Source: Rhodospirillaceae bacterium
GTDB lineage: Bacteria; Pseudomonadota; Alphaproteobacteria; SP197
NCBI GenBank assembly: GCA_002722885.1
Contig: PBNE01000013.1
Location: forward strand, 226,831-290,830
Reading direction: 5' to 3'
DNA length: 64,000 bases
Each line of letters opens with the position of its first letter. Position 1 is the stretch's first letter. Below the pieces are notes generated by a model. It ran no database searches, had not been told where the DNA came from, and saw nothing but the letters and a program-made list of their open reading frames with translations. The position numbers were made by a program, and so were the translations under genes. Positions 4,921 to 24,237 of this stretch are shown piece by piece.

Positions 4921-5157
4921 ATGACAGACCGGTCAACGACCTACAGCTCGGCAGAGGCACGCCGGTTTCATGAGCGGACCACGCTCCGGAACTGGTCCGA
5001 CACGCCGAACCTGATGCACTACGCCTTCCTGCACATGGCCGAGTTTTTCCCGCACGCCGTTATCCATCGCAGCGGCCCGATCATGGAGGTCGGCCAGTTT
5101 CCGCGGGCCGACATCGCCGGCTTCGAGGTCGAGAGCAGTCAGGGTCCAGAATGTTGA
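4921..5157 (+). pseudogene. N-terminal fragment of a probable serine hydrolase (beta-lactamase-like)
   Basis: Starts 13 bp after the molybdoenzyme. The first 50 residues (RTTLRNWSDTPNLMHYAFLH, then AEFFPHAVIHR) resemble the N-terminus of 6-aminohexanoate-dimer-hydrolase-type serine hydrolases, which normally run to about 400 residues. Here the frame stops after roughly 78 codons, before any catalytic SxxK motif, and just before the chimeric tRNA. I infer truncation by the recombination event that also made the tRNA. The family assignment rests on a short stretch only. Confidence 0.5.
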
Positions 5158-5233
5158 CAAACTGTCGATACGTTCAGCTGTACACGCGCTGCAGAAGTTC
5201 GATACTGCCCAGATAGCGGACGACCGCTCAAGG

Positions 5234-5310
5234 TGGTGATCCCGACAGGATTCGAACCTGTGACCTACTGATTAGGAATCTCGTGCTCTATCCAGCTGAG
5301 CTACGGGCGC
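5234..5310 (-). tRNA. Chimeric tRNA-Arg(CCT)-like gene, probably non-functional
   Basis: A 77-nt tRNA-shaped sequence with encoded CCA, D-arm GCTC...GAGC, loop TTCCTAA giving anticodon CCT, and a perfect T-arm (ACAGG/CCTGT with TTCGAAT). The two halves do not match each other. The 5' acceptor strand is GCGCCCG but the 3' strand is CGGGATC (two mismatches), and the anticodon stem CGAGA faces TCAGT with only two pairs. Each half is a good arginine-tRNA half on its own, so this looks like two tRNA-Arg genes joined at the anticodon loop, the usual crossover site for tRNA-targeting integrases. Confidence 0.75.
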
Positions 5311-5370
5311 ACGCGTACCCAGCTATAGCAACGGGTGGACGGCGAGGTAGACCAAAGGAAGTTCCTCACA

Positions 5371-5937
5371 ATGACGGACGACTTCTTAACGATTAAGCAA
5401 GCACCTGAGACGCGCACCTATCCGATGCGCCTTGAGCTCACTGGCTACTTCAGTGAAGACGCGTTCGACTTCTTTCATCGATACAAGTTGACGTTCTACT
5501 CCGACCAGTTCGACTTCCAGTGCGTGAAGAGTCGGCGGGTTAAGGCCTACATCGACCTTCGCATGGCGCTCGAAGTTCTACTCAAGGCAGCCGTCTGTTT
5601 ACGCGGTTCAGGCGAACTCGCCGGCAGGCAACTTGTTCGAGAGATCCGGCGCTATCGACACAATATCGAGCGCTTCACTGAAGCGGCGCTGAGGGGCATC
5701 GAGCTAGATGCTCGGTTCATGGAGGCCAAAGGAACCCGGGCTGCCCAACTGCCACTAGGCCTCAAGAGTGAGATCCGAGGTCGGTACAGAGCAGCAGGCC
5801 AAACAGGTCCCAGGCTCAGCGGCGGCGCTAGGAATGATTGTATGGCGGGAGGTGCCTGCCTTGATCGCAGTGATGCATGTGCCGCAGTTGCCCGCTCGGC
5901 AACCGGCCTCCATCGGAATGCCGTTGGCCTCCGCTAG
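5371..5937 (+). pseudogene. Hypothetical (HEPN-like?) gene, truncated at its 3' end
   Basis: The start at 5371 follows AAAGGAAG. The first ~125 residues look like true coding sequence with ordinary composition (KAYIDLRMALEVLLKAAV, REIRRYRHNIERF), a helical pattern reminiscent of HEPN-type proteins, though I cannot assign it firmly. From about 5755 the frame runs antisense through the end of the flavin reductase gene, so the natural 3' part has been lost and replaced. It lies directly beside the chimeric tRNA and is more AT-rich than its neighbours, consistent with remnant island DNA. Confidence 0.45.
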
Positions 5938-7035
5938 GTCCAACAAGGAATCGGCCTTGCCATCCCAAGTGAGTGCCTTGTCACTGCGCGCAAAGGTGAT
6001 CGTAAAACCTTCCGTGGCCTCGTTGACTTCATCGACCTGCTTGGTCTGACCGATGCGCTTGATGCTTGCGGGCCCGAAGGCCTCGAAGTGGATCCGTTCA
6101 TCGGGGACGCCCCAGTCCAAGAGTCCCTCGTAAAGCGACTTCATCATCGGCGGCGGCCCACAGAAGAGGAAATCGTAGTTGTTGGACGGCAGCAGGTCCC
6201 TGAAGAGATCAACGCCGACCCTGCCGCCGTGCTGAAAATGCTCACCCTCGATATCGCCGTCCTCGGGATCGGAATAGCATACACGGAGTCTGGCGTTGGG
6301 ATGCTGCAGAGCGAGGCGCTTGAGGTGATCCTTCATGATGTGTTCACGGCCACAACGTACGCCATAGAAGAACCAAATCTCCTGTTCGGAGTTGCGTTCC
6401 AGCAGAGTATTGAGCATTGACAGAACCGGCGTGATACCGACGCCGCCACCGATCAACACGACAGGCTTGCGCTGCGCGGGGTCGAGGTAGAAGTGACCAG
6501 CCGGTGCCTTGACGTCGAGGATGTCTCCGACCCGCGCGTTGTCATGGAGCCAGTTCGACGAGGATTTTCTGATGTCGGCCCTGCTTTCGTCACGAGGTGG
6601 GGCCTGACGCTTAACTGAGATCCGATACTTTTCCTGGTGTGGTGCATCCGACAGGGAATAACACCGCACGACAGGGCTGGAAGACCCGGGAAGCTTTAGA
6701 TTGAAGGTCAGAAACTGCCCAGGAAGGTAAGGCGGGAGCGGGCGTTTGTCGTGCGGCGAAAGGTAAAAGGAGCAGATATCCCCGCCCTCCTCAACACGCT
6801 CCATCACCTCGAACTTCCGCCAGCCCGACCAGGAGAACTGTTCGCGCTCGCGCTCAAGCCTGCCACGCTCCAACAAATCGTCGATGCGCCGGTTTAGCAG
6901 CGATTGCTCCAACTCCGCGGTGCGCGCGGTGACCGACACCCCGTGAGCCTCTCGCAGCGCCAGCACAAGGACATAGGCGGCAATGGCACCAAAGATGGCT
7001 CCCGCCGCCAGATTGATCATCATGTTGGGTTCCAT
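5755..7035 (-). CDS. Membrane-anchored FAD/[2Fe-2S] NAD(P)H oxidoreductase
   Basis: About 426 residues. An N-terminal transmembrane helix (MINLAAGAIFGAIAAYVLVL) is followed by a short coiled linker. Next comes a ferredoxin-reductase FAD domain (residues ~95-190, with RCYSLSDAP for FAD), an NAD(P)-binding domain (VVLIGGGVGITPVLSML, later FLFCGPPPMM), and a C-terminal plant-type [2Fe-2S] ferredoxin domain (EAGCRAGNCGTC, then CLACCS). This layout matches NAD(P)H-oxidising reductases that feed a one-electron carrier. The ATG at 7035 is preceded by GAGAGGG; a GTG at 7050 is an alternative. It is the last gene of the cytochrome operon, starting right after the barrel gene, so it plausibly loads or unloads electrons on the cytoplasmic face. 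The physiological direction is unknown. Confidence 0.85.
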   Translation of the reverse strand: MEPNMMINLAAGAIFGAIAAYVLVLALREAHGVSVTARTAELEQSLLNRRIDDLLERGRLEREREQFSWSGWRKFEVMERVEEGGDICSFYLSPHDKRPLPPYLPGQFLTFNLKLPGSSSPVVRCYSLSDAPHQEKYRISVKRQAPPRDESRADIRKSSSNWLHDNARVGDILDVKAPAGHFYLDPAQRKPVVLIGGGVGITPVLSMLNTLLERNSEQEIWFFYGVRCGREHIMKDHLKRLALQHPNARLRVCYSDPEDGDIEGEHFQHGGRVGVDLFRDLLPSNNYDFLFCGPPPMMKSLYEGLLDWGVPDERIHFEAFGPASIKRIGQTKQVDEVNEATEGFTITFARSDKALTWDGKADSLLDLAEANGIPMEAGCRAGNCGTCITAIKAGTSRHTIIPSAAAEPGTCLACCSVPTSDLTLEA

Positions 7036-7049
7036 GAACCGCCCTCTCA

Positions 7050-8588
7050 CTAGAACTTCTTGCGAAGCTCGATGCGAAAACCCGAGATGTCGTCCGAGTT
7101 CTCAAGCCAACCGTGCATGGCGTCGAACCGAACGATCCAATCGAGCGCGATCGGCTCTTGGTATCTGAGACCGAGAGCAAACTGGTCACCCGGCGCAGAG
7201 CGCCCCGCAGCATCGTCAAAGGCGCGCAATGCCGCAGCCTCGACGACGAGCTGGCGGTCTAGATTGAAGAGATACTCTATGCCCAAGGCGCCGCCAAAGG
7301 TGTTGTTGGCAGTGTCGTCCAGCTTCGGGAAGCCGGTCAGATTGTCGGTATCGAAGTTGATCCCGGTGTTCTTGAGCAGTCCGGCGTTGCGCGCCAGAGG
7401 CTGCGGCTTATCAAACCCGACAAAGGCATTGAAATAGGGCACCAGAGTGAGCGGCTGGCTGGTGATCAGCGAGTTTTCCACCAGCAGCGCGAACCCGTCG
7501 GCGGTTTGCGCAACACCGCCCGGCGGATCCTGACCGAAGGTCCAAAATCCGCGGACGGAGTTGGAGAGCCACCCCCCGTAACGGCGCGTGAACGCAACCG
7601 TTGCACTGTTGTAGCCCAGATCTTCGAGCTGATCTTCGCCCACAAGGGCGCCGATACCGGCTTCCCAATAGCCTTCGTTGGCCTCCACGAACGTGGCGAT
7701 ACCAAAGATATCGAGATCGTCGTCGGCGAGGCCGCCGGCCGAATCGCGGATTGCCGGGGTCGTGACCTTGTCGAAACCGGCGAAGAAGGTCACATCGAAA
7801 TTCGTGATGTCGAGCTCGGGACTGTTGCGCGCCGGAAGGGCGAAGGCGCCCCCCACGAAGGCGTCGTCGACCCAAATTCCGTTCTGGAAGATCATCGGGA
7901 CGAGTCCGACCGCGAAAGGAAGATCGAAGTCCTGATACCGCCCGGAGAACCCTGAATAAAGCGCGCCGATGTCGCCTTCGAAAAACAGCGTTTGGGGCAC
8001 ACCGTTAAACTCGTTCACGAAGCCATCGCGGGAATCACCACCCGCGAACTCGTAGCGTGTGAAGTTGCCGTTCTGATCCAGCGGCCGGAAAAAAGCGTGG
8101 AGTCGCTCGGTCGCGGTGATGGCGACATCTATGTCGAGATTGATCTGGGTCGCTACCAGGCCCAATTCGGACGCACCATTGTCATTGTAGGCAACGGCGG
8201 TCCTTAGATCACCGTAGATCCTAAGGTTGGGCCGCACGAGATTGCGCTCACCAAGAAAGGCGTAGTCCTCGGAGAACGGCCCCTCCTGATAGAACGGCGT
8301 ACCCAATTCTAGGAGCGGACGGGGTGCCTCGATCGGAGACTTGCCGCCGTAGATATCGAGCTGCGCCTCGGCGTCGTAGCCATCGTCCTCGTAAGTCGGA
8401 TCGGGCTTGAAAACCGAGGCGTCGAATTCGGTGAACTCCGCGTCAACTGGGATTTCCGGGGGCGGCTGTTCGACGTGAGCATCCCCGGCAACGGCAAGTC
8501 CGGTGAGCGATAGCAAACTCGTCAGCAGGACCACGACAGCAAGACGCGCGCGACAGTCACGCGCTCCCTTGGTCTCGTATGAAGTCAT
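7050..8588 (-). CDS. Outer-membrane beta-barrel protein of the cytochrome operon
   Basis: About 512 residues with a classical signal peptide (LTSLLSLTGLAVAGDAH). An acidic, proline-rich N-terminal segment precedes a long run of alternating polar/aromatic strands (RPNLRIYGDLRTAVAYNDN, FALGLRYQEPI, DWIVRFDAMHGW), ending in FRIELRKKF with the C-terminal Phe typical of BAM substrates. It has no CxxCH. The ATG at 8588 overlaps the stop of the pentaheme gene (ATGA) and has GGAGG upstream, replacing the longer track start. Length allows roughly 18-26 strands, shorter than MtrB-type sheaths, so it may be a porin or a sheath for a cytochrome. Its place inside the operon between cytochromes and reductase suggests the second. 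Confidence 0.75.
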   Translation of the reverse strand: MTSYETKGARDCRARLAVVVLLTSLLSLTGLAVAGDAHVEQPPPEIPVDAEFTEFDASVFKPDPTYEDDGYDAEAQLDIYGGKSPIEAPRPLLELGTPFYQEGPFSEDYAFLGERNLVRPNLRIYGDLRTAVAYNDNGASELGLVATQINLDIDVAITATERLHAFFRPLDQNGNFTRYEFAGGDSRDGFVNEFNGVPQTLFFEGDIGALYSGFSGRYQDFDLPFAVGLVPMIFQNGIWVDDAFVGGAFALPARNSPELDITNFDVTFFAGFDKVTTPAIRDSAGGLADDDLDIFGIATFVEANEGYWEAGIGALVGEDQLEDLGYNSATVAFTRRYGGWLSNSVRGFWTFGQDPPGGVAQTADGFALLVENSLITSQPLTLVPYFNAFVGFDKPQPLARNAGLLKNTGINFDTDNLTGFPKLDDTANNTFGGALGIEYLFNLDRQLVVEAAALRAFDDAAGRSAPGDQFALGLRYQEPIALDWIVRFDAMHGWLENSDDISGFRIELRKKF

Positions 8589-10666
8589 TCCGTCACCTCC
8601 AACGTCACCGCATAGGGATGGACATCGATCATCCACTCGTTCATCGCCTGCTCCATCTCCGTCGTCGCCCCAACGAAGCGCATGAAGTAGATCGGCTCCG
8701 CACGACTGCGCAGACGCACGGCGAGGGTGTACTCGCCCGGCTTGCTCATGGCTTCGGCGGGAACAGTGTAGTCGGCATCGCGCCAGCCCAGCGGCGGGAT
8801 ACTGCGACCTTCCATGCGGATGAAGGGAGGATGGTTGAGCACAGTCGTTGGCACGTTCGCCGGCCGCAGGAAGGGAATCTGGTCGATATCAAAGTTGACC
8901 GGCAGATACATCTCCCGGTCCGTGCCCTTCACATTGGTCGTCAAAAACTTGGTCTGCAGATTGAACAGTTGATCGTCATGCGCGATCTCGCCTGCCGCGA
9001 CCTCGAGCGAGTGGAGGTCGGCCATGTCACCGTTGCCATCGACATAGCCGGACTCGAACACGGTGACGCCGTCAGGATCGATCAGCGCCACATTTAACCA
9101 GATTTCGGGCTGGGCGCCGAGCGAGCCGGAAGGCAGGTTGTGGCCCTCGTCGGTGTTGGTGACGCGATAGCTGAACGAGAAGGATTGACCAACCGCCGGG
9201 GGACTGTCGAAGTAGGGACCATCGATCCGTGAGCCGTTCTCCATGACCTGCACCCTGAGATCGCGCTTCTGATCGAGAAGCATCAGGTTCCAATCGATCA
9301 CTTCGCGCGCCTCGATACGGTCGTCGGAATAGGCCCAGGTGTCAGGCCATTCGTAACTGAATGCGAGCTGCAGGGTGTCAACCGCGTCGTCGAGCCGTTC
9401 GGCAAGCACCTCGGCATCGCCAGCGCCTGCGATCAGATCTTCGACCGTGAGCTCGAAGGCAGCAAAGGCCTGCTCCAGTCCCGACGGATCCTCGAGCTGC
9501 TCGATGCGGCCGTCGACGGCTTCTTCGGCATAGTCAAGCAGGTCGTAAAGGTCGTCCTCCGGCATGGTGTCGCCGGTATCGGCCGCCTCATAGACCAGAT
9601 CGACGACATCGGGCGCCGTGAACTCGAAGGTATCCTCATAAGCGAAAGCGACTTCCTCGTAGTCGTCGGTGCCCCAATTCGAGCGATAGTCGAAGTTTAA
9701 CCACTCCTCGATCGTCCAGGACTCGGCATCAGGATTGTGGGGAAAAATCCCAGGATGAGCGATCGGATAACCCGGACCGTAGAACGCGTGGTTATGGTGC
9801 GGCCGCGGTTCGCCAACCGGTTCGCCGTCGACGATCGCGGCATAGTCCATGTCGTAACCCGCAGCGATCCCTGGGATTTCGCCCATATGGCAGTCTTGGC
9901 ACTGCACGCCTGCGGCAGCAGCGGGGGAATCCCGGTACTGGTCCCAGACGACCTCGAGTTTGATACCGGGATCCACAGCAACTTGGTGGCACGAGACGCA
10001 GAACTCAGATTCGGTAATCTGCTCGAACTCGATGACGCCCTGGTGGATTGCCGATCCACGGCTTTCACCGTCGATGTCGACCTTCCAGTAGTCGGGGTCT
10101 TCCAGAACCTCGGCAATATTGCTGCCCTCGCCGCTACCGCGCATGGGCTCGTAGATCTCACCGGCTGTAATCGTACGCTCGCCATCGACCTTGCCGTATG
10201 CGCCAGCGACGCGGTGACAAGTGATGCAAGTGACACCTTCCCGCGAAATCTGACTGCGTTCCCAAAGCGGCGCCTCGCGCGGCTCGCCCATCTGCGTTCC
10301 GACCTGCTGATGGCAGCGCACGCAGAAGCTACCGATCGTACCCGAAGAGAGATCGTTGATAGTCTGCTCGAACTTGTGAAACATCGGCGAAATCGACGAA
10401 TAGGCGTGGTTAGACGAGGCCCATTCCCAATAGATGCGCTCGTGACAGGCGATACACTGGCTCGCGCTGGGATAGTTCTCTTCCAGAAACACCGCGGCGT
10501 GCGGATCCTCAATCGCCGCCATCTCGACCTCAGCCTCGTCGTCGACCTCCTCCTGGCCGAACGCACCGGCGCCAATCGTTAGCAACGCGGCCATCGCCAG
10601 AACCGTCAGCCAGAGCGTGGCCTGAGACCTGAAGATCTGGTCATGAGAAGATTGTGTGGACGTCAT
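8585..10666 (-). CDS. Pentaheme c-type cytochrome, c554-like N-terminal half
   Basis: A 693-residue exported protein (signal/anchor near LTVLAMAALLTIGAGAFG). Five CxxCH motifs fall within residues ~70-260: CIACH, CVRCH, CITCH, CVSCH and CQDCH. Several extra His residues (SNHAYSS, HHNHAFYGPGYP) could serve as distal ligands. The spacing resembles cytochrome c554/multiheme c families. The second half is heme-free: an acidic helical stretch (~330-430), then a beta-rich domain (VGQSFSFSYRVTNTDEGHNL) that looks like an immunoglobulin-type or docking domain. It overlaps the barrel gene by 4 bp and follows the decaheme gene after 6 bp. Likely a periplasmic or outer-surface electron carrier; partner and acceptor are unknown. 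Confidence 0.85.
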   Translation of the reverse strand: MTSTQSSHDQIFRSQATLWLTVLAMAALLTIGAGAFGQEEVDDEAEVEMAAIEDPHAAVFLEENYPSASQCIACHERIYWEWASSNHAYSSISPMFHKFEQTINDLSSGTIGSFCVRCHQQVGTQMGEPREAPLWERSQISREGVTCITCHRVAGAYGKVDGERTITAGEIYEPMRGSGEGSNIAEVLEDPDYWKVDIDGESRGSAIHQGVIEFEQITESEFCVSCHQVAVDPGIKLEVVWDQYRDSPAAAAGVQCQDCHMGEIPGIAAGYDMDYAAIVDGEPVGEPRPHHNHAFYGPGYPIAHPGIFPHNPDAESWTIEEWLNFDYRSNWGTDDYEEVAFAYEDTFEFTAPDVVDLVYEAADTGDTMPEDDLYDLLDYAEEAVDGRIEQLEDPSGLEQAFAAFELTVEDLIAGAGDAEVLAERLDDAVDTLQLAFSYEWPDTWAYSDDRIEAREVIDWNLMLLDQKRDLRVQVMENGSRIDGPYFDSPPAVGQSFSFSYRVTNTDEGHNLPSGSLGAQPEIWLNVALIDPDGVTVFESGYVDGNGDMADLHSLEVAAGEIAHDDQLFNLQTKFLTTNVKGTDREMYLPVNFDIDQIPFLRPANVPTTVLNHPPFIRMEGRSIPPLGWRDADYTVPAEAMSKPGEYTLAVRLRSRAEPIYFMRFVGATTEMEQAMNEWMIDVHPYAVTLEVTE

Positions 10667-10672
10667 GGTGCG

Positions 10673-12673
10673 TCACTCCATCGTTGCTTCAAGCTCCACC
10701 ATGCGGCGGAGGAAACCAGTTTCAAGATGATAATTGTGACAAAGCAAACAGCCTTCGTCGGCAGCGATCGCCTGGAGGCCGTCGTCACCTTCGCCGTGAC
10801 ACGATAGACATTGGGCGTTCCCGATCGAACGGAAGCTCGAAACCGGGCGGTTCGCGTCAAGGGTTTCGTATGCACCGGCGATGCCGCTTTCTTCCTTTAG
10901 ACGATGACAGACCGAACAGGAAGTGCCTTCGCCCAGAACATTCAGATGCGGGCCGTGGCTGTAGCGCACGTAAGGGCTCCAGGGTGTGTTGTCGCTTTCC
11001 CATCGGACCTCGACCGGCGTCGCAGGATCGGTCGGATTGCCGTTCGACACGCTCATGCTGTGACACCTGGCACACGAACCGGGTCCCTGTCCCGGGCTCA
11101 TGAGCGTGTCACGGACAAAGAGCGCGTGATCGACATCGCCACTGGCCTCCGCAGCCAGTGTCGGAGCGGCCGCGGCGAGATCGAGCCAGGCGGTCATCAC
11201 TGGATCCGCATGGCCCGACGCCATGTAGTCGACAGTCAGGCCGTCCACGTACCAACCGCCGCCGGGTGGCGGGTCCTGACGGACGTCAGCATTGGCCATC
11301 CACGCGCAGACCGCGGTGCGCACCGTATCGTCGTTCAGGCCGGCCAGCAGGGCGACACCGTCCACCGTTCCGTCGGTACGATCCTCGATCAGGCTCGCCA
11401 GCGGCTCGCTTCCACTGTCGGCAAGATCGAGATAAAGCCAGAGCAGGTCGTCGACCAAAGGTTCATCGGCCGGCAGGTCGTAGATATCGGGGTTCTCCGC
11501 ATCAAGCGCCCATTGCATCAGCGGCGTCATAGCTTCGCCGAACGCCACCGATTCGAAATCGCCGAAGGGGTCGCCTTCGGCCACGGCGGCGCGGGCGACG
11601 ATGAGAGAGCGGTAGAATTCAGGCGATCCGCGGTCGGGACATAGTTCGGCAAGGTACTCGTGATCGAGTGCTGCGAATTGTTCGGCCGAGAACTCGGGCA
11701 GCGCCAGCACCGGCAGCGAGCGGTCGTCGAGGTCGCCCGCATGGCAGGACGCGCAGGACTCTTCGAAACCACGCACCGGTACGAAATCCGTCGCACGGTC
11801 GACAACGTGGCAATCGACGCAACCTGTGGGATCGTCTGCCGCGGCCTGAAGGAAGTGCTTGCCCAGATGGGTGACGTGGTCGAACCGCAGCGCGGTTCGC
11901 TGGAGAGATGGATAAAGCTCACCGAAGGGCACGTGGTCGGTGAAGCTCTCCATCGCGACCAGATGGCACGTGCTGCATTGCGCGTCGGTCATCTCGACTA
12001 AGTTCGCATCCAGGCCGTCGTGTTCGGTATGGCAACTGATGCATTCCATCTGCGCAAGGTCGGGATTGCGCAGTGAGGACATCGCTACCGATTCAAAGTT
12101 ATGCGGATTGCGGACATCGCCCTCGAAAACATGGCAGTCGAGGCAGGCGGAGGTCATGTCCTGGCCGACGAAGATGCTGCCCAGCCAGTCGCCCAGATCA
12201 CCGTCGTGGGCGACGTGGCACGCACCGCAATCGTCGCCTACAAACAGCAGATGCGAGCTTGAGATCATACCCGGGCTGAGGCTGTTGGTGGCATGGCTCG
12301 CGTCGCTACCGGTTTCGATGATGGCACCCAGCAGGGCGATCATGGCGATCACCGCGAGAAAGGTAATTCGGGAGCGCTGATGACGCAGGGACCGCCGCGG
12401 CACGCAGGGTGGACGCCGCCGCGCACAGCGCCCCTCGGGATCCGGGCCCTCCGCGCACGGACCGCCGGCGGAGACCGGTCTGCGGCACTCCCAGCGATCC
12501 TTGCTTGCATTATGGAATGGCCGGCAAGCCGTAACGCCGCCGCAGCTTCCATCGCCGTTGGGTCCCATCGGACACGGCCGGCCCCAGATCGCCGCTCGCC
12601 CGCAACGCCACTTGCGGTTGGGCCGTTCGTAGGGGCTGCGATCAAACTTGAACCTGTCGGATGAGAGCTTCAC
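10673..12673 (-). CDS. Decaheme membrane-anchored cytochrome c with cytoplasmic Cys-rich head
   Basis: A 666-residue protein. Residues 1-95 are basic and cysteine-rich, with two copies of a four-Cys pattern (C24, C34, C44, C50 and C63, C73, C83, C90; spacing CX9CX9CX5-6C). A single membrane helix follows near 103-122 (ITFLAVIAMIALLGAI), then a periplasmic part with ten CxxCH motifs: six in the first ~190 residues (CGACH, CLDCH, CISCH, CSTCH, CVDCH, CASCH) and four near the C-terminus (CARCH, CSVCH, CLSCH, CLLCH). A heme-free helical segment separates the two groups. The topology (Cys-rich head inside, hemes outside) suggests a direct trans-membrane electron relay. Sits 5 bp after the cytochrome b gene and 6 bp before the pentaheme gene. 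Confidence 0.85.
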   Translation of the reverse strand: MKLSSDRFKFDRSPYERPNRKWRCGRAAIWGRPCPMGPNGDGSCGGVTACRPFHNASKDRWECRRPVSAGGPCAEGPDPEGRCARRRPPCVPRRSLRHQRSRITFLAVIAMIALLGAIIETGSDASHATNSLSPGMISSSHLLFVGDDCGACHVAHDGDLGDWLGSIFVGQDMTSACLDCHVFEGDVRNPHNFESVAMSSLRNPDLAQMECISCHTEHDGLDANLVEMTDAQCSTCHLVAMESFTDHVPFGELYPSLQRTALRFDHVTHLGKHFLQAAADDPTGCVDCHVVDRATDFVPVRGFEESCASCHAGDLDDRSLPVLALPEFSAEQFAALDHEYLAELCPDRGSPEFYRSLIVARAAVAEGDPFGDFESVAFGEAMTPLMQWALDAENPDIYDLPADEPLVDDLLWLYLDLADSGSEPLASLIEDRTDGTVDGVALLAGLNDDTVRTAVCAWMANADVRQDPPPGGGWYVDGLTVDYMASGHADPVMTAWLDLAAAAPTLAAEASGDVDHALFVRDTLMSPGQGPGSCARCHSMSVSNGNPTDPATPVEVRWESDNTPWSPYVRYSHGPHLNVLGEGTSCSVCHRLKEESGIAGAYETLDANRPVSSFRSIGNAQCLSCHGEGDDGLQAIAADEGCLLCHNYHLETGFLRRMVELEATME

Positions 12674-12678
12674 GGCGT

Positions 12679-13503
12679 TCAGACGAGATAAACGTGGACG
12701 AGGATGACGTGCCAGATCACAAGCACCAGAAAGGCGTAGGTGGCGGGCACATGGACCAAGAGCCAGACCTTGAGCAGCCGCTGCAGCGTGTAGGAGCGAT
12801 CAAGATCGATCTTGAGATAGGCCAGGGCTTGCAGCCTGGAGCAGTAGTCATGCTCCTCGCCCTGCAGATAGATACTGACGCTGTCGATGTGATGGCGAAG
12901 CCAGAAATTGGCGGTGTTGGCGACAAAGAGCGACGAAATCGCGAAGCGCGGCTTTCGGAAGTACCAGTGCAGGTTTTCGCGGTAGAGTCGCGGCAAAACC
13001 TCGCTGCCGGTCTTTTCGGCACATTCCATGATGATCTCTTCGGCCTGTCGCCGAAGCTCGTAGAGATCGCCGGGGATGCGCTCCCAGATGAACTCGTTCT
13101 GGATTTTCGTGAGCGCCGTTGAGAGCACGCGCTGGAGGATGTAACCCGCGATCCCCGATAACACGACCGCATAGAACAGCAGGGCCAACAACAGCTCGTA
13201 GCCGCTGGGCCAGAGCGTGCGGGCATGAAGCGCGTAGACGATGATCACGCCGATCCCGACGACGACGTGCACAACCAACCAGTAGCTGCTTCTGCCCAGG
13301 GGCAGCATCGAGAGCTTCTTGCGAATGTTGTAGAGCGCGAGAAACACGATGGAGGCGAGCAGCAGCCAGCCTGTTTCGATCTCGGGATGCCCGAGAACGA
13401 GAGCTTGGCTGTAATCATACCAGGCGACGGCCGCACACGAGCCGACAAGGAACATACCGAAACCGACACGAAACGCGAAACGCAAAGCGTTGCCGCGAAT
13501 CAT
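12679..13503 (-). CDS. b-type membrane cytochrome subunit
   Basis: A 274-residue membrane protein with about five helices: ~8-28, ~44-60, ~73-97, ~104-124 and ~243-272. Histidines placed inside or at the edge of helices (WLVVHVVVG, YALHARTLW, LLVHVPATY, VIWHVILVHVYLV) can ligate two b-hemes. A soluble loop (~130-235) sits between helices 4 and 5. The pattern resembles cytochrome b561/Cbc-type quinone-reactive subunits, though no family can be fixed by eye. Its ATG overlaps the stop of the cNMP/Fe-S gene by 4 bp. It probably exchanges electrons between the quinone pool, the cytoplasmic Fe-S protein and the multiheme cytochromes. Confidence 0.75.
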   Translation of the reverse strand: MIRGNALRFAFRVGFGMFLVGSCAAVAWYDYSQALVLGHPEIETGWLLLASIVFLALYNIRKKLSMLPLGRSSYWLVVHVVVGIGVIIVYALHARTLWPSGYELLLALLFYAVVLSGIAGYILQRVLSTALTKIQNEFIWERIPGDLYELRRQAEEIIMECAEKTGSEVLPRLYRENLHWYFRKPRFAISSLFVANTANFWLRHHIDSVSIYLQGEEHDYCSRLQALAYLKIDLDRSYTLQRLLKVWLLVHVPATYAFLVLVIWHVILVHVYLV

Positions 13504-15224
13504 CGTTCTTCCGCCATCTGCACAAGATCCGCAAAACTGCTTCGACGCAGAGCATCATGGGGACAGGCGCGCACACACGCGGGTCCGGCCGGCTGGTCGT
13601 AGCAGAAGTCGCACTTGGTGGCCTTCAAGAGCGGCACCCCCTGTTCGCTGTCGATGATCACCTCGTCGCGGTCATTGCGAATCTCGACCATGCGGATGTT
13701 GTCGTATGGACAAGCGTTGGCGCAGGTCTGGCAGCCGATGCATGTCGTGTCGTTGATCACGACCATGCCGCTTGCCTCGTCGCGATGGATGGCGCCGGTC
13801 GGGCAACCGATCATGCAGACCGGATCGGTACAATGCATGCAGGCGTTGGCTACCATCCAATGTGAATGATCCTTGCCGTGACGCACGAATCGTGGATTGC
13901 CATCGTGGGTCGAGGCACAGGCACGGACACAATCGTCACAGCGGACACAGCGATCCAGATCGATCACCATGGCGCGCGTACCATTGATGAAACGCTCACC
14001 GATCGCCCACTCGAGCAGCGAGTCATCGGCGAGCGGCCGTTCGAAAGCTGATTGTAGATCGTCGGACGGGGACTGGCGGAGATTGGGAAAAACGTGCCGT
14101 TCCATGACAAAATAGGGCACACGCAATACGTCGACATACCCAAGTGGCGTCAGCGACGCGCGCATGGCGACATCGTCGTCGCCCCTCCAAAGTCGGTAGA
14201 GTTCATCGAGACCAAAGACATCGCCAGCACGCAGATAGGTCAGCGCACGCTCGCCATTGCCGATGCGCCTGGTGACCTTGGCGAAGCCGCCGCGGATCAT
14301 CAGAAGGCCGTCGGGGTAATCGCCCTCGTTCACGATCTTCGCACCGACGCTTTCTGCGCCCCGGCGCTTGAAATCAACGTTCCAGTCGAACGATCCATAC
14401 GACTCAAACAGCGTGTCGGCAGCCACCGCATCAATCAGTTCCGACGACAGGCCGGAGAATAGGGCATCTTCTTGCAGATGAAGCTTCAGCGCGTTGTTGC
14501 GATAGGTTGAGTCGATGCGTTCGCGCCACCCCGGATCGTAGCGGCGTAGTTCGCGCAGACCCTGCCAACGGATTTCAAGCAGAAGCGCATCGACCTCCGC
14601 AACAACCGTCGCGGTCCGGGGACTACGCGCTACAGCAGCGATCTCACCAAAGATGCGCCCTTCGCCCAGGGACACCGTCGTCTGTGTCTGACGGACGTAG
14701 TCCATGTCGAGTCTTGTCTGTTGCTGCTCGACCGTCCGGACGCTGCGCTCTGACACATCATTCATGCGCCGCAATTCCATGATCTTGCCACGGTTCGTCC
14801 AGAGCTGAGACAAAGCAGACAAGAGGCTCTTTCGACGTGATGGCGCGCGCCCCAGCATCGACGGTGGCAAACCGGGTGTCAGCGCGACGCAGACCGAGCC
14901 TTCCACCACGAGGAATGCGGAATTGCCGTAGTCACCCTCACGCACGACGACGTCACCAGCCTGATAACGGATCAGTCTCGTATCGTTGGCGAGGATACCG
15001 TCCAGCGGAATCTGAACAGGGAAGCGATGGGCTTGGACGCCGTCAAACGCGGGCAGCGCGAGAATACGTTCAACGTCGTGGCTCGAGAGCTCCTCATCGA
15101 ACGGTTTATCCCAGCGTTGAGGCCGAGGAACGGCATCCATCGGCCAACCTGCCCGTCGCATACGCTCACGCCCCCGATCGAGTTGTGCCGAACTGTCACT
15201 TGTACTCGGTCGGCACGAGATCAC
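13500..15224 (-). CDS. Double cyclic-nucleotide-binding domain fused to a four-cluster ferredoxin
   Basis: Up to 574 residues, soluble, with no signal or membrane helix. The first two thirds contain two cNMP-binding (CAP_ED) domains: one around 60-230 (YQAGDVVVREGDYGNSAFLV, then GRIFGEIAAVARSPRTATVV with the phosphate-cassette Arg), and a second around 265-390 (VNEGDYPDGLLMIRGG). The C-terminal ~150 residues carry four ferredoxin cysteine motifs (CVRCDDCVRAC, CMHCTDPVCMIGC, CIGCQTCANAC, CDFCYDQPAGPACVRAC), enough for four [4Fe-4S] clusters as in HybA/DmsB-type subunits. The start is uncertain: a GTG at 15224 overlaps the tetraheme gene, while ATGs at 15161 and 15140 are alternatives. I infer a cytoplasmic electron-transfer subunit whose activity is gated by cAMP/cGMP or another nucleotide. 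Confidence 0.85.
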   Translation of the reverse strand: MISCRPSTSDSSAQLDRGRERMRRAGWPMDAVPRPQRWDKPFDEELSSHDVERILALPAFDGVQAHRFPVQIPLDGILANDTRLIRYQAGDVVVREGDYGNSAFLVVEGSVCVALTPGLPPSMLGRAPSRRKSLLSALSQLWTNRGKIMELRRMNDVSERSVRTVEQQQTRLDMDYVRQTQTTVSLGEGRIFGEIAAVARSPRTATVVAEVDALLLEIRWQGLRELRRYDPGWRERIDSTYRNNALKLHLQEDALFSGLSSELIDAVAADTLFESYGSFDWNVDFKRRGAESVGAKIVNEGDYPDGLLMIRGGFAKVTRRIGNGERALTYLRAGDVFGLDELYRLWRGDDDVAMRASLTPLGYVDVLRVPYFVMERHVFPNLRQSPSDDLQSAFERPLADDSLLEWAIGERFINGTRAMVIDLDRCVRCDDCVRACASTHDGNPRFVRHGKDHSHWMVANACMHCTDPVCMIGCPTGAIHRDEASGMVVINDTTCIGCQTCANACPYDNIRMVEIRNDRDEVIIDSEQGVPLLKATKCDFCYDQPAGPACVRACPHDALRRSSFADLVQMAEER

Positions 15225-16107
15225 TCACGGCAGCGGAGTGGTCCTGACCGGCGATCGCCAGAGCAAATGCTTCAGCATTCGCTTCAGTCGGATCGGCCAG
15301 CACGGCTGCGCCGACATCGATTCGTGACAGAGCCTCGGTAGCGCGCGCGATACGCACCTCCATCGCAGCGACGTAATCGGGATGAGAGGTCCGCGCCGAG
15401 CCCTCGGTCGCTGCGACAAGCGAGGCCGCCTGACCCACCAGATACCACTCAGCCGATTCGGCCGCGGTGAGTTCCTGATTAACGTCTCTGTCGGGCGGAT
15501 AGAAGCGGTGGCGCACCTGACCCTGGCTGTAGGCGATGTATTCGAAATCGCCATTCACGGGATGACCGGCATCCAGCATGATCTCCAGCGTCGCAACGTC
15601 GAGCGCATCGTTGTTGAGACCGTGGCAGGTGAAGCAGTTGCGCGTGGCGTCGTAGGTCATATGCGGCCAGATCATGCCTGCCGCAGCGGCATCGTTAATA
15701 CGCTGGGCTTCATGCTCCGCCGACTCCTGCTCGGCCGTAACGCCCTGACCACCGTAATTGTTGTGAATCTCGATCCAGTCCGACGCTGCACCGTGACAGC
15801 TTTCGCAGGACGGGCCCGCCACCGGATCGGGTTCACCGGAAGCATCTGTGAGCGCCGTGTAATGGCAGAGAATGCAAACTTCGCTCTTCTTGGGGTTCCG
15901 GTCGCCAACTTCCTTGACGATGTCGCGTGCGTCGCGGTTCCTGTGAAACTCGTCGAAGAGGGCAGCGTGTGGCGTGTCCTCCCAGACGGTGAATTCCGGC
16001 TTATGACACTTCTGACAAGCCTCTGGCCCTAGGAAATCCTGGGCCGATGCGGTCTGCATCAACGTGACCAATGCCAATGCCAGCAGTCCCCAACGAAGTA
16101 GCAGCAT
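15196..16107 (-). CDS. Tetraheme cytochrome c (c554-like)
   Basis: About 303 residues from the ATG at 16107, which has GAGGG upstream and opens directly into a signal peptide (MLLLRWGLLALALVTLMQTA, cleaved after ASA). Four CxxCH motifs (CQKCH, CILCH, CESCH, CFTCH) lie in the first ~160 residues with spacing like cytochrome c554/c-prime family proteins. The remainder is helical and heme-free. It is the first gene of the seven-gene operon. In nitrifiers c554 accepts electrons from hydroxylamine oxidoreductase; no such enzyme is here, so only the fold and the periplasmic electron-carrier role are claimed. Confidence 0.82.
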   Translation of the reverse strand: MLLLRWGLLALALVTLMQTASAQDFLGPEACQKCHKPEFTVWEDTPHAALFDEFHRNRDARDIVKEVGDRNPKKSEVCILCHYTALTDASGEPDPVAGPSCESCHGAASDWIEIHNNYGGQGVTAEQESAEHEAQRINDAAAAGMIWPHMTYDATRNCFTCHGLNNDALDVATLEIMLDAGHPVNGDFEYIAYSQGQVRHRFYPPDRDVNQELTAAESAEWYLVGQAASLVAATEGSARTSHPDYVAAMEVRIARATEALSRIDVGAAVLADPTEANAEAFALAIAGQDHSAAVSDLVPTEYK

Positions 16108-16261
16108 TTCGAAGATTCCCTCGACCATTTTAGCCGCGGTATCGACGACTATGCCCCGGCCAGTCACCCAAGCGGCTGGTAGCCCCAACCCACCTGAAAA
16201 CGAAACCGCAATTCTTGGAATCTATCGTTCAACAGCGATCAGGGCCTGTCAACAAACCAAA

Positions 16262-16326
16262 TGATCCTTCGCCCGCGAATTGGTCCATCCTGATGTTTGG
16301 GAAGGATGGCCAGATATGGCGAGGAT
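16262..16326 (+). mobile_element. IS end remnant (~63 bp), matching the copy at 30896
   Basis: The sequence from TGATCCTTCGCCCGCGAATT onwards is identical for 39 bp, and then nearly so (four mismatches in about 63 bp), to 30896-30958. The second copy leads into an IS3-type orfA. Here only the outer end survives and the match ends abruptly after GAGGA, so this is a solo IS end or scar upstream of the cytochrome operon. Confidence 0.7.
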
Positions 16327-16346
16327 CAATCGACTGTATCCCCTTG

Positions 16347-16535
16347 CTAGGTCCCAACCATGAGGTCGTTGCCCAGGCATTCGGTTCTCGAACGCAGCAG
16401 GAAGGACGCAGCCAAATTGTGCATGCTATCGGCTTGCTTCAGGGTTTCAGGGCAGTAGGGGTCGGCCTCCAGAAGCTGTTCTGCCATCACCTGCAGCAGA
16501 GTGGCCCGTTCGAGATCAGCATGTATGACGTCCAT
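16347..16535 (-). CDS. Small hypothetical protein (62 aa)
   Basis: The ATG at 16535 is preceded by AAAGGAG at ideal spacing, stronger evidence than for most short ORFs here. The product is acidic and helical (ATLLQVMAEQLLEADPYCPE) with no signal or membrane segment, and I recognise no family. It is transcribed toward the cytochrome operon with the IS-end scar between them. Confidence 0.5.
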   Translation of the reverse strand: MDVIHADLERATLLQVMAEQLLEADPYCPETLKQADSMHNLAASFLLRSRTECLGNDLMVGT

Positions 16536-16846
16536 CGTTGTACTCCTTTCAACGTTCTTTGTACGGAGCCGAGGCGAAATGCGATCACTGTCCTGCTACA
16601 ATTCCTGCGTCCAGCATCTGCCTGGCAAGCTGCGCTCTTAAGACGGTTTCGTCGATAGGCCAATTTGCCCGGGCCTTCGAAACCGGAGGGCCCCTTGTTC
16701 GCTGATCGTTGCCATGGACGGGGTCTCAAATGGGGCATTCGCCTAATTAAACGAATTAAACGTCTGATCTATTGTTTGTCGATCTTAAGAAGGAGGGGCC
16801 GATCATGGTCGGAACATCGGGCTCCATCCGCTATTCATCGATTGGC
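16536..16846. other. Gene-free AT-richer spacer
   Basis: About 310 bp with an AT-rich patch around 16740-16790 and a strong Shine-Dalgarno-like AAGGAGGGG near 16790. The plus ORF behind that site has the composition of a shadow frame, so no gene is called. Confidence 0.4.
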
Positions 16847-17155
16847 TCAGCCACCCCAAACATCATCGTATCGGGTCGTTCCGTCGCCTGCGGGGTAGTC
16901 GCGGTAAGTCGCGCGAGATGCATCGGCAACGTTACCGGCGTTGCGAAACGTCAGGCCGGTTACAAGGAATCCAACAGCAACAAGGACATGCCCCACGATC
17001 AGTTCGCCGTACCAAATCCAGGCGCCGGTTGCGGTGCAAAATATGGCGGTCCACATCATGGCGAGCGTACTCATGATCTGGAACCGCTGCGCCGGCGGCA
17101 GCGTGCGCAGGGGGTTGACCGAAGGATCCATTACAGATCGGTACAAGGAAAACAT
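16847..17155 (-). CDS. Small two-helix membrane protein (102 aa)
   Basis: The ATG at 17155 (preceded by GAAAGAG) is preferred to the GTG five codons upstream. Two hydrophobic helices are clear (MSTLAMMWTAIFCTATGAW and LIVGHVLVAVGFLVTGLTF) with short polar ends and a Tyr/Asp-rich tail. No family recognised. It lies 39 bp after the 52-residue ORF on the same strand, so the two may be co-transcribed. Confidence 0.55.
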   Translation of the reverse strand: MFSLYRSVMDPSVNPLRTLPPAQRFQIMSTLAMMWTAIFCTATGAWIWYGELIVGHVLVAVGFLVTGLTFRNAGNVADASRATYRDYPAGDGTTRYDDVWGG

Positions 17156-17194
17156 GGCAATCTCTTTCACGGATTGGTTGTCGGGTCTAGAACG

Positions 17195-17353
17195 CTATTT
17201 CTGTCCGCCGATCGAAGATCCCTGACGGATGCGCGCCATCTGGACCCGCAATGCGTCGATGCCGGGAAGAGGAACGACAGACAGTCCGGGGAGAAGCAGC
17301 ACACCCCGGGGCAGGGTGGGTTTGACGACCTGATTGTCGTTTGCAGTACGCAT
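17195..17353 (-). CDS. Small ORF of 52 codons, below the track cut-off
   Basis: Not in the ORF track. The ATG at 17353 has AAGGA at 7 nt spacing, and the frame reads MRTANDNQVVKPTLPRG followed by a hydrophobic leucine/proline-rich middle and a basic end, stopping at 17195. Its ribosome site and its position just upstream of the two-helix protein support it. Function unknown. Confidence 0.4.
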   Translation of the reverse strand: MRTANDNQVVKPTLPRGVLLLPGLSVVPLPGIDALRVQMARIRQGSSIGGQK

Positions 17354-17705
17354 AGGTTGTGTCCTTGCTTTGAATGTTTCCGTTTCTACGTGGCCAGAAG
17401 CTCGATAGATCAGTCAAAGCTGCCATGCGTGGAGCGCCCGACCCGGTTTTCCTGGTTGAGCCCTGGCGCCAACCGGAACCGGCGTTTCGACAAATGACCT
17501 CATTGTGTTGGGATTCGGAGGCACATCGTGTCTGTCCGACAGGTCAAATGCCGTCCGAAGCTCGCGTGTTGCACCCCAGGCGGCGCAACATCATCGCTTG
17601 AGAAGGCAGCACTGGACACCGTTCGCGGGAGTGACTGATGGTGCCCAGTACTGCCATAACCGCCCACACGGGCTGATCTATTTACGCGGACTCAGGACGA
17701 TCGGA
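17354..17705. other. 352 bp spacer with no supported gene
   Basis: Frames on both strands are short, lack ribosome sites and have shadow-like composition. It contains the 3' flank of the glutathione peroxidase gene and presumably the promoter of the small-ORF pair. Confidence 0.4.
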
Positions 17706-18275
17706 TCATTCGGCGTAGAGGATGTCTTCAATCGATTGCTGCAGGTCGCGAGATCCAGGGGTTGTCATACTGGAGAACCACCTCACGAAGTTGCCATCGC
17801 GGTCAATCAGGTACTTGAAGAAGTTCCACCGCGGTTGCCCGGCGAGGCCAGCCTGGTTTGCAATCCACGCGAACAGCGCATGAGCCTCGTCACCCTTGAC
17901 ATTTTGCTGCGTCAGCATCGGGAAATCGATTCCGTAGGTGACTTCGCAGAATGTTTTTGTCTCGTCGTTGCTGTCGTACTCTTGGCCGCCGAAATTGTCT
18001 GAAGGCACGCCCAGAACGACCAATCCGTCGACGCGGTAGCGTTCCCATAACATTTGGAGGCCTTCGTATTGTGGCGTGAAGCCGCACATAGAGGCTGTAT
18101 TGACCACCAACACCGTGTGGCCGATCAGATCATCGGCAGAAAGTTGGCCGCCGTCTAGGCTGGGCAAAGGTATCTCGGACCAGTTCACAGGAGAGGAGTT
18201 GGCAGTAGCGGTGCAGATTGTCATGGCGGCAGTCAGCGACGCAAAGCCGTAACGAATCCTTCGTGCCAGTACCAA
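17706..18275 (-). CDS. Exported glutathione peroxidase family protein
   Basis: Up to 189 residues. An N-terminal signal (YGFASLTAAMTICTATANS) is followed by the thiol-peroxidase fold: the peroxidatic Cys in VVNTASMCGFTPQYEGL, the second conserved block LGVPSDNFGGQE, and the WNFFKYLIDRDG segment carrying the catalytic Trp/Asn. The selenocysteine position is Cys, as usual in bacteria. Translation probably starts at the TTG at 18275, three bases after the chrR stop and behind GAGGG; ATG 18224 is an alternative that would lose half the signal. It is third in an rpoE-chrR operon, so it should be induced with the sigma factor and reduce periplasmic peroxides, including lipid peroxides. Confidence 0.85.
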   Translation of the reverse strand: MVLARRIRYGFASLTAAMTICTATANSSPVNWSEIPLPSLDGGQLSADDLIGHTVLVVNTASMCGFTPQYEGLQMLWERYRVDGLVVLGVPSDNFGGQEYDSNDETKTFCEVTYGIDFPMLTQQNVKGDEAHALFAWIANQAGLAGQPRWNFFKYLIDRDGNFVRWFSSMTTPGSRDLQQSIEDILYAE

Positions 18276-18278
18276 TCT

Positions 18279-18938
18279 TCAGACCCTCAAGAGCGGATCA
18301 ATGATACGGCCCAGGGGTCCCGTCAGCCTGAGGCGATCCGACGTCACCGCCAAGCAGATACAAGCCACCTGGTCGTCGGCCAGAGGCTGGTGATCAAGCT
18401 CTTGATCGGCGACCTGAATGTCCCCGCGCACATAGTTTCCGGTGATGTCGCTGAATCCACCTTCCAGAACAAGGGTCAGCTCGGTTCCTCTGTGACTGTG
18501 TTGCGGGACTCCGTGGCCCGGTGCGATACGCAGCATCCTGATCTTATGTCCGGGTTCCGCTGCAGGAAGAAAGGCCGTTTCAATCGCTCCACGACGATTC
18601 CAGGGAACGTCGCTGCCAAGCGAGGTCAGCCGGTCGCGCAAGGGTCGTGGAAAGGTTGCCAGCGCCGGCGGGACTGGGGGACGAGCGGGCCTCACTTCTG
18701 GCTCGCGCTCGTCTCGTTCGATCCGGGCCATCAGTGCTTCAAAATCGTCGCCGCGAGCTTGAGGTGGGTTTTCCCGATCTAGCATGGCGCCGCCAATGCG
18801 TTCGAGCGCTGAGACTTCGCGACGGCAGGCAGGGCACATGGCAAGGTGCGTGGCAATGATCAGGCTGAATGCGTCGCTCATGGCGCCCGTCGCATAGTCG
18901 AGCAGCAGCGTCTGATCGGGATGATGAGAGATGTTCAC
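18279..18938 (-). CDS. chrR: ChrR-family zinc-binding cupin anti-sigma factor
   Basis: A 219-residue two-domain anti-sigma factor. The N-terminal ASD binds zinc through H-x3-C-x2-C (ATHLAMCPACRRE, with an earlier His near SHHPDQT). The C-terminal cupin domain shows HSHRGTELTLVLEGGF and a second metal-site block (VADQELDHQPLADD). The start ATG overlaps the end of rpoE by 4 bp. In Rhodobacter ChrR holds RpoE inactive and releases it on singlet oxygen or organic peroxide; the same role is inferred here from sequence layout and gene pairing. Confidence 0.88.
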   Translation of the reverse strand: MNISHHPDQTLLLDYATGAMSDAFSLIIATHLAMCPACRREVSALERIGGAMLDRENPPQARGDDFEALMARIERDEREPEVRPARPPVPPALATFPRPLRDRLTSLGSDVPWNRRGAIETAFLPAAEPGHKIRMLRIAPGHGVPQHSHRGTELTLVLEGGFSDITGNYVRGDIQVADQELDHQPLADDQVACICLAVTSDRLRLTGPLGRIIDPLLRV

Positions 18939-19579
18939 TGCAAACCCTCCAAGGAGTGGCGCAACTTCTTCAGTGCCAGACGCAACCGCGATTTTACGGT
19001 GCCCAAAGGCAAGTCGAGCTGCATGGCGATTTCCGAATGAGACATATCCCTCTGGTACGCCATGGCAATCAGATCGGATTGCTCTACCGGCAAATACGAT
19101 AGGGCCTGGGCGAGAAGGAGAGATATTTGGCGATTGTTGGCATGGTCGTCGGGCAGCGGGCGATCGTCGACGTCCTCGATGACGGTGGCCGGATCGTCGA
19201 TGTCGACCTCAGGACGCGACCGGCGAGCCAGGTCGATACGTCTGTTACGAGCAATTGTGAAAATCCAGGTGGAGGCCGACGCCTTCGACGGATCGAATGT
19301 GGACGACCGCCGCCAGATCCTCGCAAACACGTCCTGAACAATATCGTCGGCCAGAGCCGTTGCGCTGCCTCGCTTTATGAGAAACGAACGGACGCGCGGC
19401 GAAAAATGCTCGAAGAGACGACGAAAGGCCGCGATATCTCTATCGCGACCAACGGCCATCAGATCGGCCTCATGGGATGATAATAAGGTAGTATTAAGTT
19501 CCGCGTGATCAGCCATGGGCTTCTCTAACCCTAGGAAATCAGGAGCGGCAAGCTCGTCGTCCGAAAGCTGTTGGAACAT
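18935..19579 (-). CDS. rpoE: RpoE-type ECF sigma factor, ChrR-associated
   Basis: 214 residues with sigma region 2 (FRRLFEHFSPRVRSFLIKRG, then DDIVQDVFARIWRRSSTFDP) and region 4 (LSYLPVEQSDLIAMAYQRDM, HSEIAMQLDLPLGTVKSRLR) joined by an acidic linker. The ATG at 19579 has GGGAGG upstream. Adjacency to chrR places it in the RpoE-ChrR ECF group that directs the photo-oxidative or singlet-oxygen response in alphaproteobacteria. A matching promoter-like site lies in its own upstream region, implying autoregulation, and the divergent lipid operon is a likely target. Confidence 0.9.
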   Translation of the reverse strand: MFQQLSDDELAAPDFLGLEKPMADHAELNTTLLSSHEADLMAVGRDRDIAAFRRLFEHFSPRVRSFLIKRGSATALADDIVQDVFARIWRRSSTFDPSKASASTWIFTIARNRRIDLARRSRPEVDIDDPATVIEDVDDRPLPDDHANNRQISLLLAQALSYLPVEQSDLIAMAYQRDMSHSEIAMQLDLPLGTVKSRLRLALKKLRHSLEGLQ

Positions 19580-19601
19580 GACACCTCCCGCGCACTTTTG
19601 T

Positions 19602-19631
19602 TATTTACGCAAGCCAACTGTTCCCGGATCA
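19602..19631 (-). promoter_or_regulatory. RpoE-type promoter for the rpoE-chrR operon
   Basis: Reading the minus strand: TGATCC at 19631-19626, an 18-base spacer, then TAAATA at 19607-19602. This closely matches the published RpoE consensus TGATCC-N18-TAAGA, about 25 bp before the rpoE ATG. Inferred autoregulatory promoter. Confidence 0.6.
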
Positions 19632-19642
19632 CAGCCTTCGGG

Positions 19643-19672
19643 TGATCCATTACAGTCTGCCGTGCGAAAAAG
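19643..19672 (+). promoter_or_regulatory. Possible weak RpoE-type promoter for the lipid operon
   Basis: Plus strand TGATCC at 19643-19648, an 18-base spacer, then AAAAAG. The -35 is perfect but the -10 lacks its leading T, so the call is tentative. It sits about 25 bp before the FAD gene start and faces away from the rpoE promoter. Confidence 0.4.
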
Positions 19673-19696
19673 GATCGTTATTCAAGAAGGTTCGTG

Positions 19697-21022: not shown

Positions 21023-21804
21023 TGCGAACCTGGCACAGTTGCGTCTACATCGGGCAGGTGATGCACCATCGTCTGACGCCCAAGCGTCACAGGTTTGTGT
21101 ATGACGCGTTCACGATGCTCTTCGATCTCGATGAACTCGAGGCGCTCGACCAACGATTCAGGCTCTTCGGATACAATCGTCGCGCACCTGTGGCGTTCCA
21201 CGACGTCGATCATGGGCCCTGCGATGGTTCGGACCTCAGGGTCTGGGCCCAAACGGAGATACGTCGTGCCGGTCTTGTGGTGCCGAACGGGCCTATCCGG
21301 CTGCTTTGTTTGCCGCGTGTTTTCGGGTTCGCCTTCAACCCCCTGACAATCTGGTTCTGTCACGATCGGGCAGAGCGCCTGACTACGATCATCTATGAGG
21401 TCAGGAACACCTTCGGAGAACGGCAAAGCTATCTCCTTCCCGTCTGCAGTCAGGATGGGATTGTCCGTCAATCTTGCGCCAAGGCGTTTCATGTTTCGCC
21501 ATTCCTGCCGGTTGCTGGCAGCTACAGCTTCCGGTTGGCAAGGCCCGACGACCGCCTGATGGTGCAGGTGCGCCATATGCTAGAAGGCGAGGTGCGGTTG
21601 GTCGCTGTACAGACAGGTGAGCGCCGGCATCTCGAGGATGGCGCGTTGAGCCTTGCCTTGCGACGCTTTCCCTTTATGACCTTCAAGATTGTCGCCGCGA
21701 TCCATGTCGAGGCTGCGCGCCTGTGGCTCAAACGCTTGCCGGTCTTTCGTCATCGGCCAGCCAAAACACCATCAGTCATGGCGGGAGGCGGTGCTCCGCG
21801 ATGA
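21019..21804 (+). CDS. DUF1365 family protein
   Basis: About 261 residues starting at the ATG at 21019, which overlaps the upstream stop (ATGA), not at the distant track start. Family blocks are clear: HHRLTPKRHRFVYDAFTMLF near the start, RLLCLPRVFGFAFNPLTIWF in the middle (a strongly conserved DUF1365 segment), FHVSPFLPVAGSYSFR and LRRFPFMTFKIVAAIHVEA at the end. No catalytic role is established for the family. Constant neighbourhood with the FAD oxidoreductase and CFA synthase points to fatty-acyl modification. Cytosolic or peripherally membrane-bound. Confidence 0.88.
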   Translation: MMRTWHSCVYIGQVMHHRLTPKRHRFVYDAFTMLFDLDELEALDQRFRLFGYNRRAPVAFHDVDHGPCDGSDLRVWAQTEIRRAGLVVPNGPIRLLCLPRVFGFAFNPLTIWFCHDRAERLTTIIYEVRNTFGERQSYLLPVCSQDGIVRQSCAKAFHVSPFLPVAGSYSFRLARPDDRLMVQVRHMLEGEVRLVAVQTGERRHLEDGALSLALRRFPFMTFKIVAAIHVEAARLWLKRLPVFRHRPAKTPSVMAGGGAPR

Positions 21805-22493: not shown

Positions 22494-22497
22494 TGTC

Positions 22498-23723: not shown

Positions 23724-23726
23724 TTT

Positions 23727-23747: not shown

Positions 23748-23752
23748 CGTAC

Positions 23753-24211: not shown

Positions 24212-24237
24212 GTTTTATGGAAACGCCAGCGCTCGAG

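Follow-up and report, generated by a model that had tools for sequence, protein, structure and literature searches.

A two-parent tRNA-Arg(CCT) hybrid just inside the edge of a genomic island in a Rhodospirillaceae bacterium

How does a tRNA gene come to consist of two halves that do not pair with one another? We address this question for a tRNA-Arg(CCT)-like sequence in the window, the whole 64,000-nucleotide stretch of a Rhodospirillaceae bacterium that we analysed, where the sequence lies close to a hydrolase-like gene and a multihaem cytochrome operon (Table 1). An earlier note, made from the letters alone, had read it as the 5' and 3' halves of different tRNA genes joined at the anticodon loop, and the joint as one boundary of a possible island.

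Table 1 Features of the window around the hybrid tRNA and the island.
Feature	Positions	Strand	Basis
Hybrid tRNA-Arg(CCT), very probable pseudogene, CCA encoded	5234..5310	-	Rfam RF00005 43 bits, 5 broken pairs; no ARAGORN call
5' part (tRNA positions 1-30), CACGAG type	5281..5310	-	With breakpoint stretch, 41 nt identical to G012 spare tRNA-Arg(CCT)
Breakpoint interval GATTCCTAATC, anticodon loop and two stem pairs, common to both parents	5270..5280	-	Mosaic analysis
3' part (tRNA positions 42-77), Minwuia type	5234..5269	-	With breakpoint stretch, 47 nt identical to Minwuia L104-L108
Genomic island, 23.6 kb, replacing ~5.2 kb of G002-like chromosome	5145..28732	.	Synteny with G002:C14; atypical composition
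Hydrolase-like gene, 5' remnant cut after ~75 residues, chromosomal side of left edge	4922..5144	+	G002 and G005 homology
Chromosomal side of right edge, G002 synteny resumes, 83% identity	28733..29944	+	blastn to L077
Spacer between island edge and tRNA, 89 bp	5145..5233	.	No significant match
Orphan open reading frame beside tRNA 5' end	5371..5805	+	No homologue
Multihaem cytochrome operon of island	5755..16188	-	Pfam; homologous block in G010:C205

Structure and parentage of the hybrid

The reverse complement of window positions 5234-5310, GCGCCCGTAGCTCAGCTGGATAGAGCACGAGATTCCTAATCAGTAGGTCACAGGTTCGAATCCTGTCGGGATCACCA, aligns end to end with RF00005 (gathering score 29) and ends in an encoded CCA (5236-5234, - strand). 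Nearly all other tRNAs of the same genome score 50-77 bits on this model, and an ARAGORN run did not call a tRNA at this position. The mispairing of the halves that the earlier note described was confirmed with Infernal: the acceptor pairs 2-71 and 3-70 and the three outer anticodon-stem pairs are broken (2/7 and 3/5, together 5/12), while the D and T arms are intact. Counted at fixed coordinates in 39 distinct tRNA-Arg(CCT) sequences, none of these 12 pairs was broken in 37 and one in a further sequence; the sole outlier besides the hybrid, L213, is an artefact of a shifted register in this count. Because its halves stem from different lineages, the stems fail to pair, and the gene is, judging from this structure, very probably non-functional.

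Positions 1-41 of the hybrid equal an intact tRNA-Arg(CCT) at G012:C6:16190, in a genome of the same family, and positions 31-77 equal one that is found intact in Minwuia assemblies. The two parents differ at 16 sites, where the hybrid reads AAAAAABBBBBBBBBB (six G012-type bases, A, followed by ten Minwuia-type bases, B), and no site matches neither parent. For six A and ten B, the chance of such an order is 2/C(16,6) = 2.5e-4, a figure that leaves out that every base has an exact parental match. The hybrid that the note had proposed is therefore a perfect two-parent mosaic whose order is not due to chance, and the A-then-B pattern places the exchange in GATTCCTAATC (window 5270-5280). Mosaic, closest parents and breakpoint interval are all observed directly. 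That none of the 77 bases carries a private change points to a joint of no great age, although both parental genes evolve slowly. Decay of a single Minwuia-type gene through six mutations in its 5' part is an extremely improbable origin: the Minwuia tRNA is indeed the closest single relative, with six differences, but all six lie in the 5' part and equal the G012-type base, with none elsewhere, a pattern that refutes such decay for practical purposes. An identical, well-scoring and vertically inherited tRNA, named in the earlier note as contrary evidence, was sought and not found.

Both halves have a narrow distribution. The CACGAG-type 5' half is rare: across 385 genomes of the class, just two others, both distant, were found to share it, and within the family no further holder besides G012 came to light. 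The 3' parent is also present in an uncultured alphaproteobacterium and in a record named Kordiimonadales IMCC3096, where the upstream flank of the tRNA is nearly the same as that in Minwuia L107; in the GTDB r220 species set, a 38-nt string of the 3' half has exact matches in five contigs only. Nine viral contigs that carry 30 nt of the 3' half were rejected as its source, since those read encode a tRNA-Arg(TCT) with a different anticodon arm. A 38-nt pattern with the CCT loop had no match in the sampled viruses or plasmids.

Within the 3.7-Mb genome, GATTCCTAATC occurs only twice, in the hybrid and in an intact tRNA-Arg(CCT) on contig C2. The latter, an elsewhere-encoded copy of the kind that the earlier note suggested looking for, is the native gene, with the CACAGG anticodon stem usual in its genus; because it is intact, the hybrid can be regarded as a dispensable pseudogene. 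A reciprocal hybrid, for which the note had also suggested a search of the rest of the genome, was not found there. The displaced 3' half was absent genome-wide with up to 3 mismatches allowed, including at the right island edge.

The island and its edges

DNA homology to the intact hydrolase-like genes of G002 and G005 stops at 5144 in both comparisons. In G002 the gene is complete (405 aa), and the genes that resume here at 28733 come ~5.2 kb further on. Between these directly observed edges GC is lower and tetranucleotide usage atypical, so that, relative to G002, the interval, being a lineage-specific block of atypical composition with defined edges, is a genomic island. The note's truncated hydrolase gene and its island that includes the cytochrome operon are both borne out by this comparison.

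The joint of chromosome and island differs, however, from the tRNA crossover, with which the note had equated it. Because the relative's homology ends at 5144, 90 bp past the tRNA 3' end, the island encloses the hybrid entirely. That the DNA on the 5' side is itself an integrative element, bounded from the chromosome by the crossover, thus seems quite improbable. The island does start next to the tRNA, and 5' tRNA fragments occur in 159 of the 3919 islands in Islander (PMC4383910), but chromosomal homology stops outside the tRNA, the synteny comparison revealed no tRNA-Arg(CCT) at this locus in relatives, and the island lacks an integrase. None was detected among the island proteins scanned, nor did the island contain a relative of the integrases adjoining other tRNA-Arg(CCT) genes, the only match being a weak one 81 kb away on the contig. 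Repeats linking the two island edges amounted to chance 8-mers, and a direct repeat of the tRNA end, another proposed mark, did not flank the island. From its place 90 bp inside the left edge, therefore, the hybrid probably came in with the island, or arose at the island edge in the same event by which the hydrolase gene lost its end.

It is very unlikely that the contig is a chimera fusing two organisms at the tRNA through an assembly or binning artefact. The assembly is a draft of 23 contigs with a contamination estimate of 8.7%, but the usual assembly word lengths exceed the 11 bp common to both parents, composition is alike on both sides of the contig (tetranucleotide r = 0.998), and G002 synteny picks up past the island on the same contig.

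The DNA immediately around the tRNA offered few clues. The spacer had no significant match in 22 relatives or in Minwuia genomes or phages, and was rejected as Minwuia DNA or DNA of a relative. Its reading as the end of an integrase gene was likewise rejected: the open frame VRVQNVDKLSIRSAVHALQKFDTAQIADDRSRW stops inside the tRNA, but neither phages, plasmids and 385 class genomes nor the integrases adjoining other tRNA-Arg(CCT) genes gave a match. For the orphan frame, searches of 289 class genomes, viral contigs, plasmids, Pfam and PHROGs yielded no homologue, and its reading as a phage gene was discarded; with no homologue for comparison, the note's view of it as a truncated foreign gene is not supported.

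The cytochrome operon is homologous to the G010:C205 block at 69% DNA identity, and no tRNA adjoins that block. One gene of the operon (13503-15224, - strand) encodes a protein in which a four-cluster ferredoxin-like domain is linked to three stretches that bind cyclic nucleotides; it could act as an electron carrier gated by redox state or by a ligand. A repeat of 64 nt, whose two window copies are 94% alike, lies just outside the operon (16262-16325) and ~2 kb beyond the right island edge (30896-30959); a third copy (83%) is found at the end of G010:C205, likewise after the homologous cytochrome operon. The island also carries apparent ECF sigma/ChrR and cyclopropane-fatty-acid synthase genes, recognised by eye from translations. 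A dienelactone-hydrolase-like lipoprotein gene of the island is surrounded by DNA of strongly atypical composition (25170-27170; 52% GC, tetranucleotide z = -9.6), which was perhaps acquired separately.

Attachment-site use and the origin of the joint

The earlier note had considered the crossover sequence typical of tyrosine integrases, and the use of this site at viral loci agrees. The anticodon loop of tRNA genes, a common target of tyrosine integrases, is used by 2083 of the 3919 islands in Islander (PMC4383910). Among 53 IMG/VR loci that bear the GATTCCTAATC motif, 18 have no more of the tRNA than its 3' half, which begins with the motif, and it is because of these that we regard GATTCCTAATC as a well-used attachment site; such tRNA-less loci are as expected of an attP or a displaced end. 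At 12 IMG/VR loci, the opposite strand carries a frame of 380-445 codons that terminates at a distance of 16-81 nt from the tRNA end; in several cases its C-terminus is integrase-like. In Minwuia L104 a profile-confirmed integrase directly adjoins the 3' parent tRNA, and in L108 the tRNA adjoins a gene end related to that integrase; the displaced end of an element was found in neither locus. As for the hybrid, its joint lies inside a tRNA gene at a subsite of integrases, and the other marks of an integrative island, namely an integrase gene, a displaced fragment and a regenerated functional tRNA, were not found.

We consider it probable that the hybrid is a decayed attachment junction. A site-specific exchange of the tyrosine-integrase kind, in the anticodon loop at GATTCCTAATC, would have joined a 5' half from a CACGAG-type tRNA of the source family to a Minwuia-type 3' half such as an attP would carry; exactly such a hybrid would be left by the integration, into a CACGAG-type tRNA, of an element that had adapted to Minwuia-like hosts. 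Loss of the gene would have been tolerated, given the intact native tRNA-Arg(CCT) elsewhere. The joint may have been made before or during the arrival of the island, and the element, with its integrase and the displaced half, may later have been deleted, so that the junction would have ended up, stripped of integrase and partner site, 90 bp inside the left edge. Because element, integrase and displaced half are all gone, we infer the integrase as the agent, as we do the timing and the later loss. Such a junction is favoured by the perfect mosaic with its breakpoint within the 11 bp common to two parents that exist as intact genes, by the 18 viral loci, by the integrases that adjoin tRNA-Arg(CCT) genes, including the 3' parent in L104, by the island edges and by the intact native tRNA. 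Against it stand the layout, as an element would normally lie 3' of the tRNA, yet the chromosomal hydrolase begins just 89 bp away on that side; the lack of integrase, displaced half, direct repeat and reciprocal hybrid alike; and the lack of the exact 3' half with CCT loop in the sampled viruses and plasmids.

A less likely, though possible, alternative needs no integrase. Recombination by short homology, or in the course of transformation, would have given the same hybrid from two tRNA-Arg(CCT) genes, of which one may have come with the incoming DNA and the other with a separate element. No integrase or element is left nearby, the island swapped DNA without visible terminal repeats, and the 11-bp common stretch suffices for microhomology joining; illegitimate or short-homology recombination could have made the exchange. 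The breakpoint falls, however, exactly at the anticodon-loop core of many integrative elements at tRNA-Arg(CCT), an argument tempered by the longer stretches that the parents share in the 5' part too.

Elsewhere in the same genome (G000:C14:74210-74278; locus L031, 14211-14279), we observed a degenerate copy of tRNA-Pro(CGG) with a diverged 5' part, whose 3' part nearly equals an intact tRNA-Pro(CGG) 2.4 kb downstream. This is possibly a second attachment scar.

The G012 element and known systems

The closest 5' parent of the hybrid is the spare tRNA of a 17.4-kb integrase element (G012:C6:14235-31639; loci L128 and L129) that splits the native tRNA-Arg(CCT) of its host genome. Nucleotides 1-39 lie at C6:31639-31601 and nucleotides 23-77 at C6:14289-14235; the core is 17 nt long, GAGCACAGGATTCCTAA. 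A Phage_integrase gene lies immediately within the former junction, and the empty site is present in G015:C50. The native tRNA is rebuilt at neither junction. Between the element ends lies the complete spare (C6:16190-16266), whose anticodon stem differs from the native one, and the pattern used revealed no other intact CCT tRNA in G012. The element encodes an Eco29kI-like restriction enzyme, a cytosine methylase and a D5/DUF5906 protein, with no structural phage gene among the proteins scanned. It thus combines two features of tRNA-dependent lysogeny, a tRNA split without rebuilding and a spare carried along, and is likely an alphaproteobacterial case of tRNA-dependent integration, in which the cell's reliance on the spare is putative. 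The changed stem alters core bases, so that, we would guess, the spare could escape the same integrase. A rather doubtful extension is that elements of this family bring along a tRNA-Arg(CCT) with an altered anticodon stem, which would let them split the host gene without cell death and would make the spare a poor target. The hybrid would then be one such spare, hit in turn by an element of another lineage, and thus the relic of an attack by one element on the rescue gene of another.

The hybrid resembles the tyrosine-integrase junctions of Islander (PMC4383910) in its anticodon-loop joint of two half tRNAs beside foreign DNA and in its core, which is also used by many prophages of tRNA-Arg(CCT). 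Unlike them, it rebuilds no working tRNA, lies inside the island and not at its exact edge, and has lost the element, the integrase and the displaced fragment. tRNA-dependent lysogeny, reported in actinobacteriophages (Guerrero-Bustamante and Hatfull 2024, PMC10865867), likewise involves a short anticodon-region core and an unreconstructed tRNA that another gene supplies, and the 5' parent is the spare of just such an element; in the window, however, a tRNA half stands on either side of the joint, no element remains, and the working tRNA of the genome is the native gene. In Sinorhizobium meliloti, prophage-borne tRNAs are described as substitutes for host tRNAs (PMC11476347). The replacement of a tRNA gene by one that resembles those of unrelated Alphaproteobacteria is common to both cases, but here the result is a broken hybrid and not a substitute.

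The hybrid is thus best read as a gene-transfer scar of a largely known kind with an unusual, cross-lineage and inactivating outcome. From its joint, both partners of an exchange between lineages in the anticodon loop can be read to the base, and the joint shows that exchanges of this kind can inactivate the very tRNA in which they take place. Analysis of the hybrid also fixed the edges of a 23.6-kb island with a multihaem cytochrome operon. The more interesting by-product is the G012 element. Whether tRNA-dependent lysogeny extends beyond actinobacterial hosts was left as an open question (PMC10865867), and this element, to which the S. meliloti findings (PMC11476347) are related, is a likely alphaproteobacterial case that bears on it.
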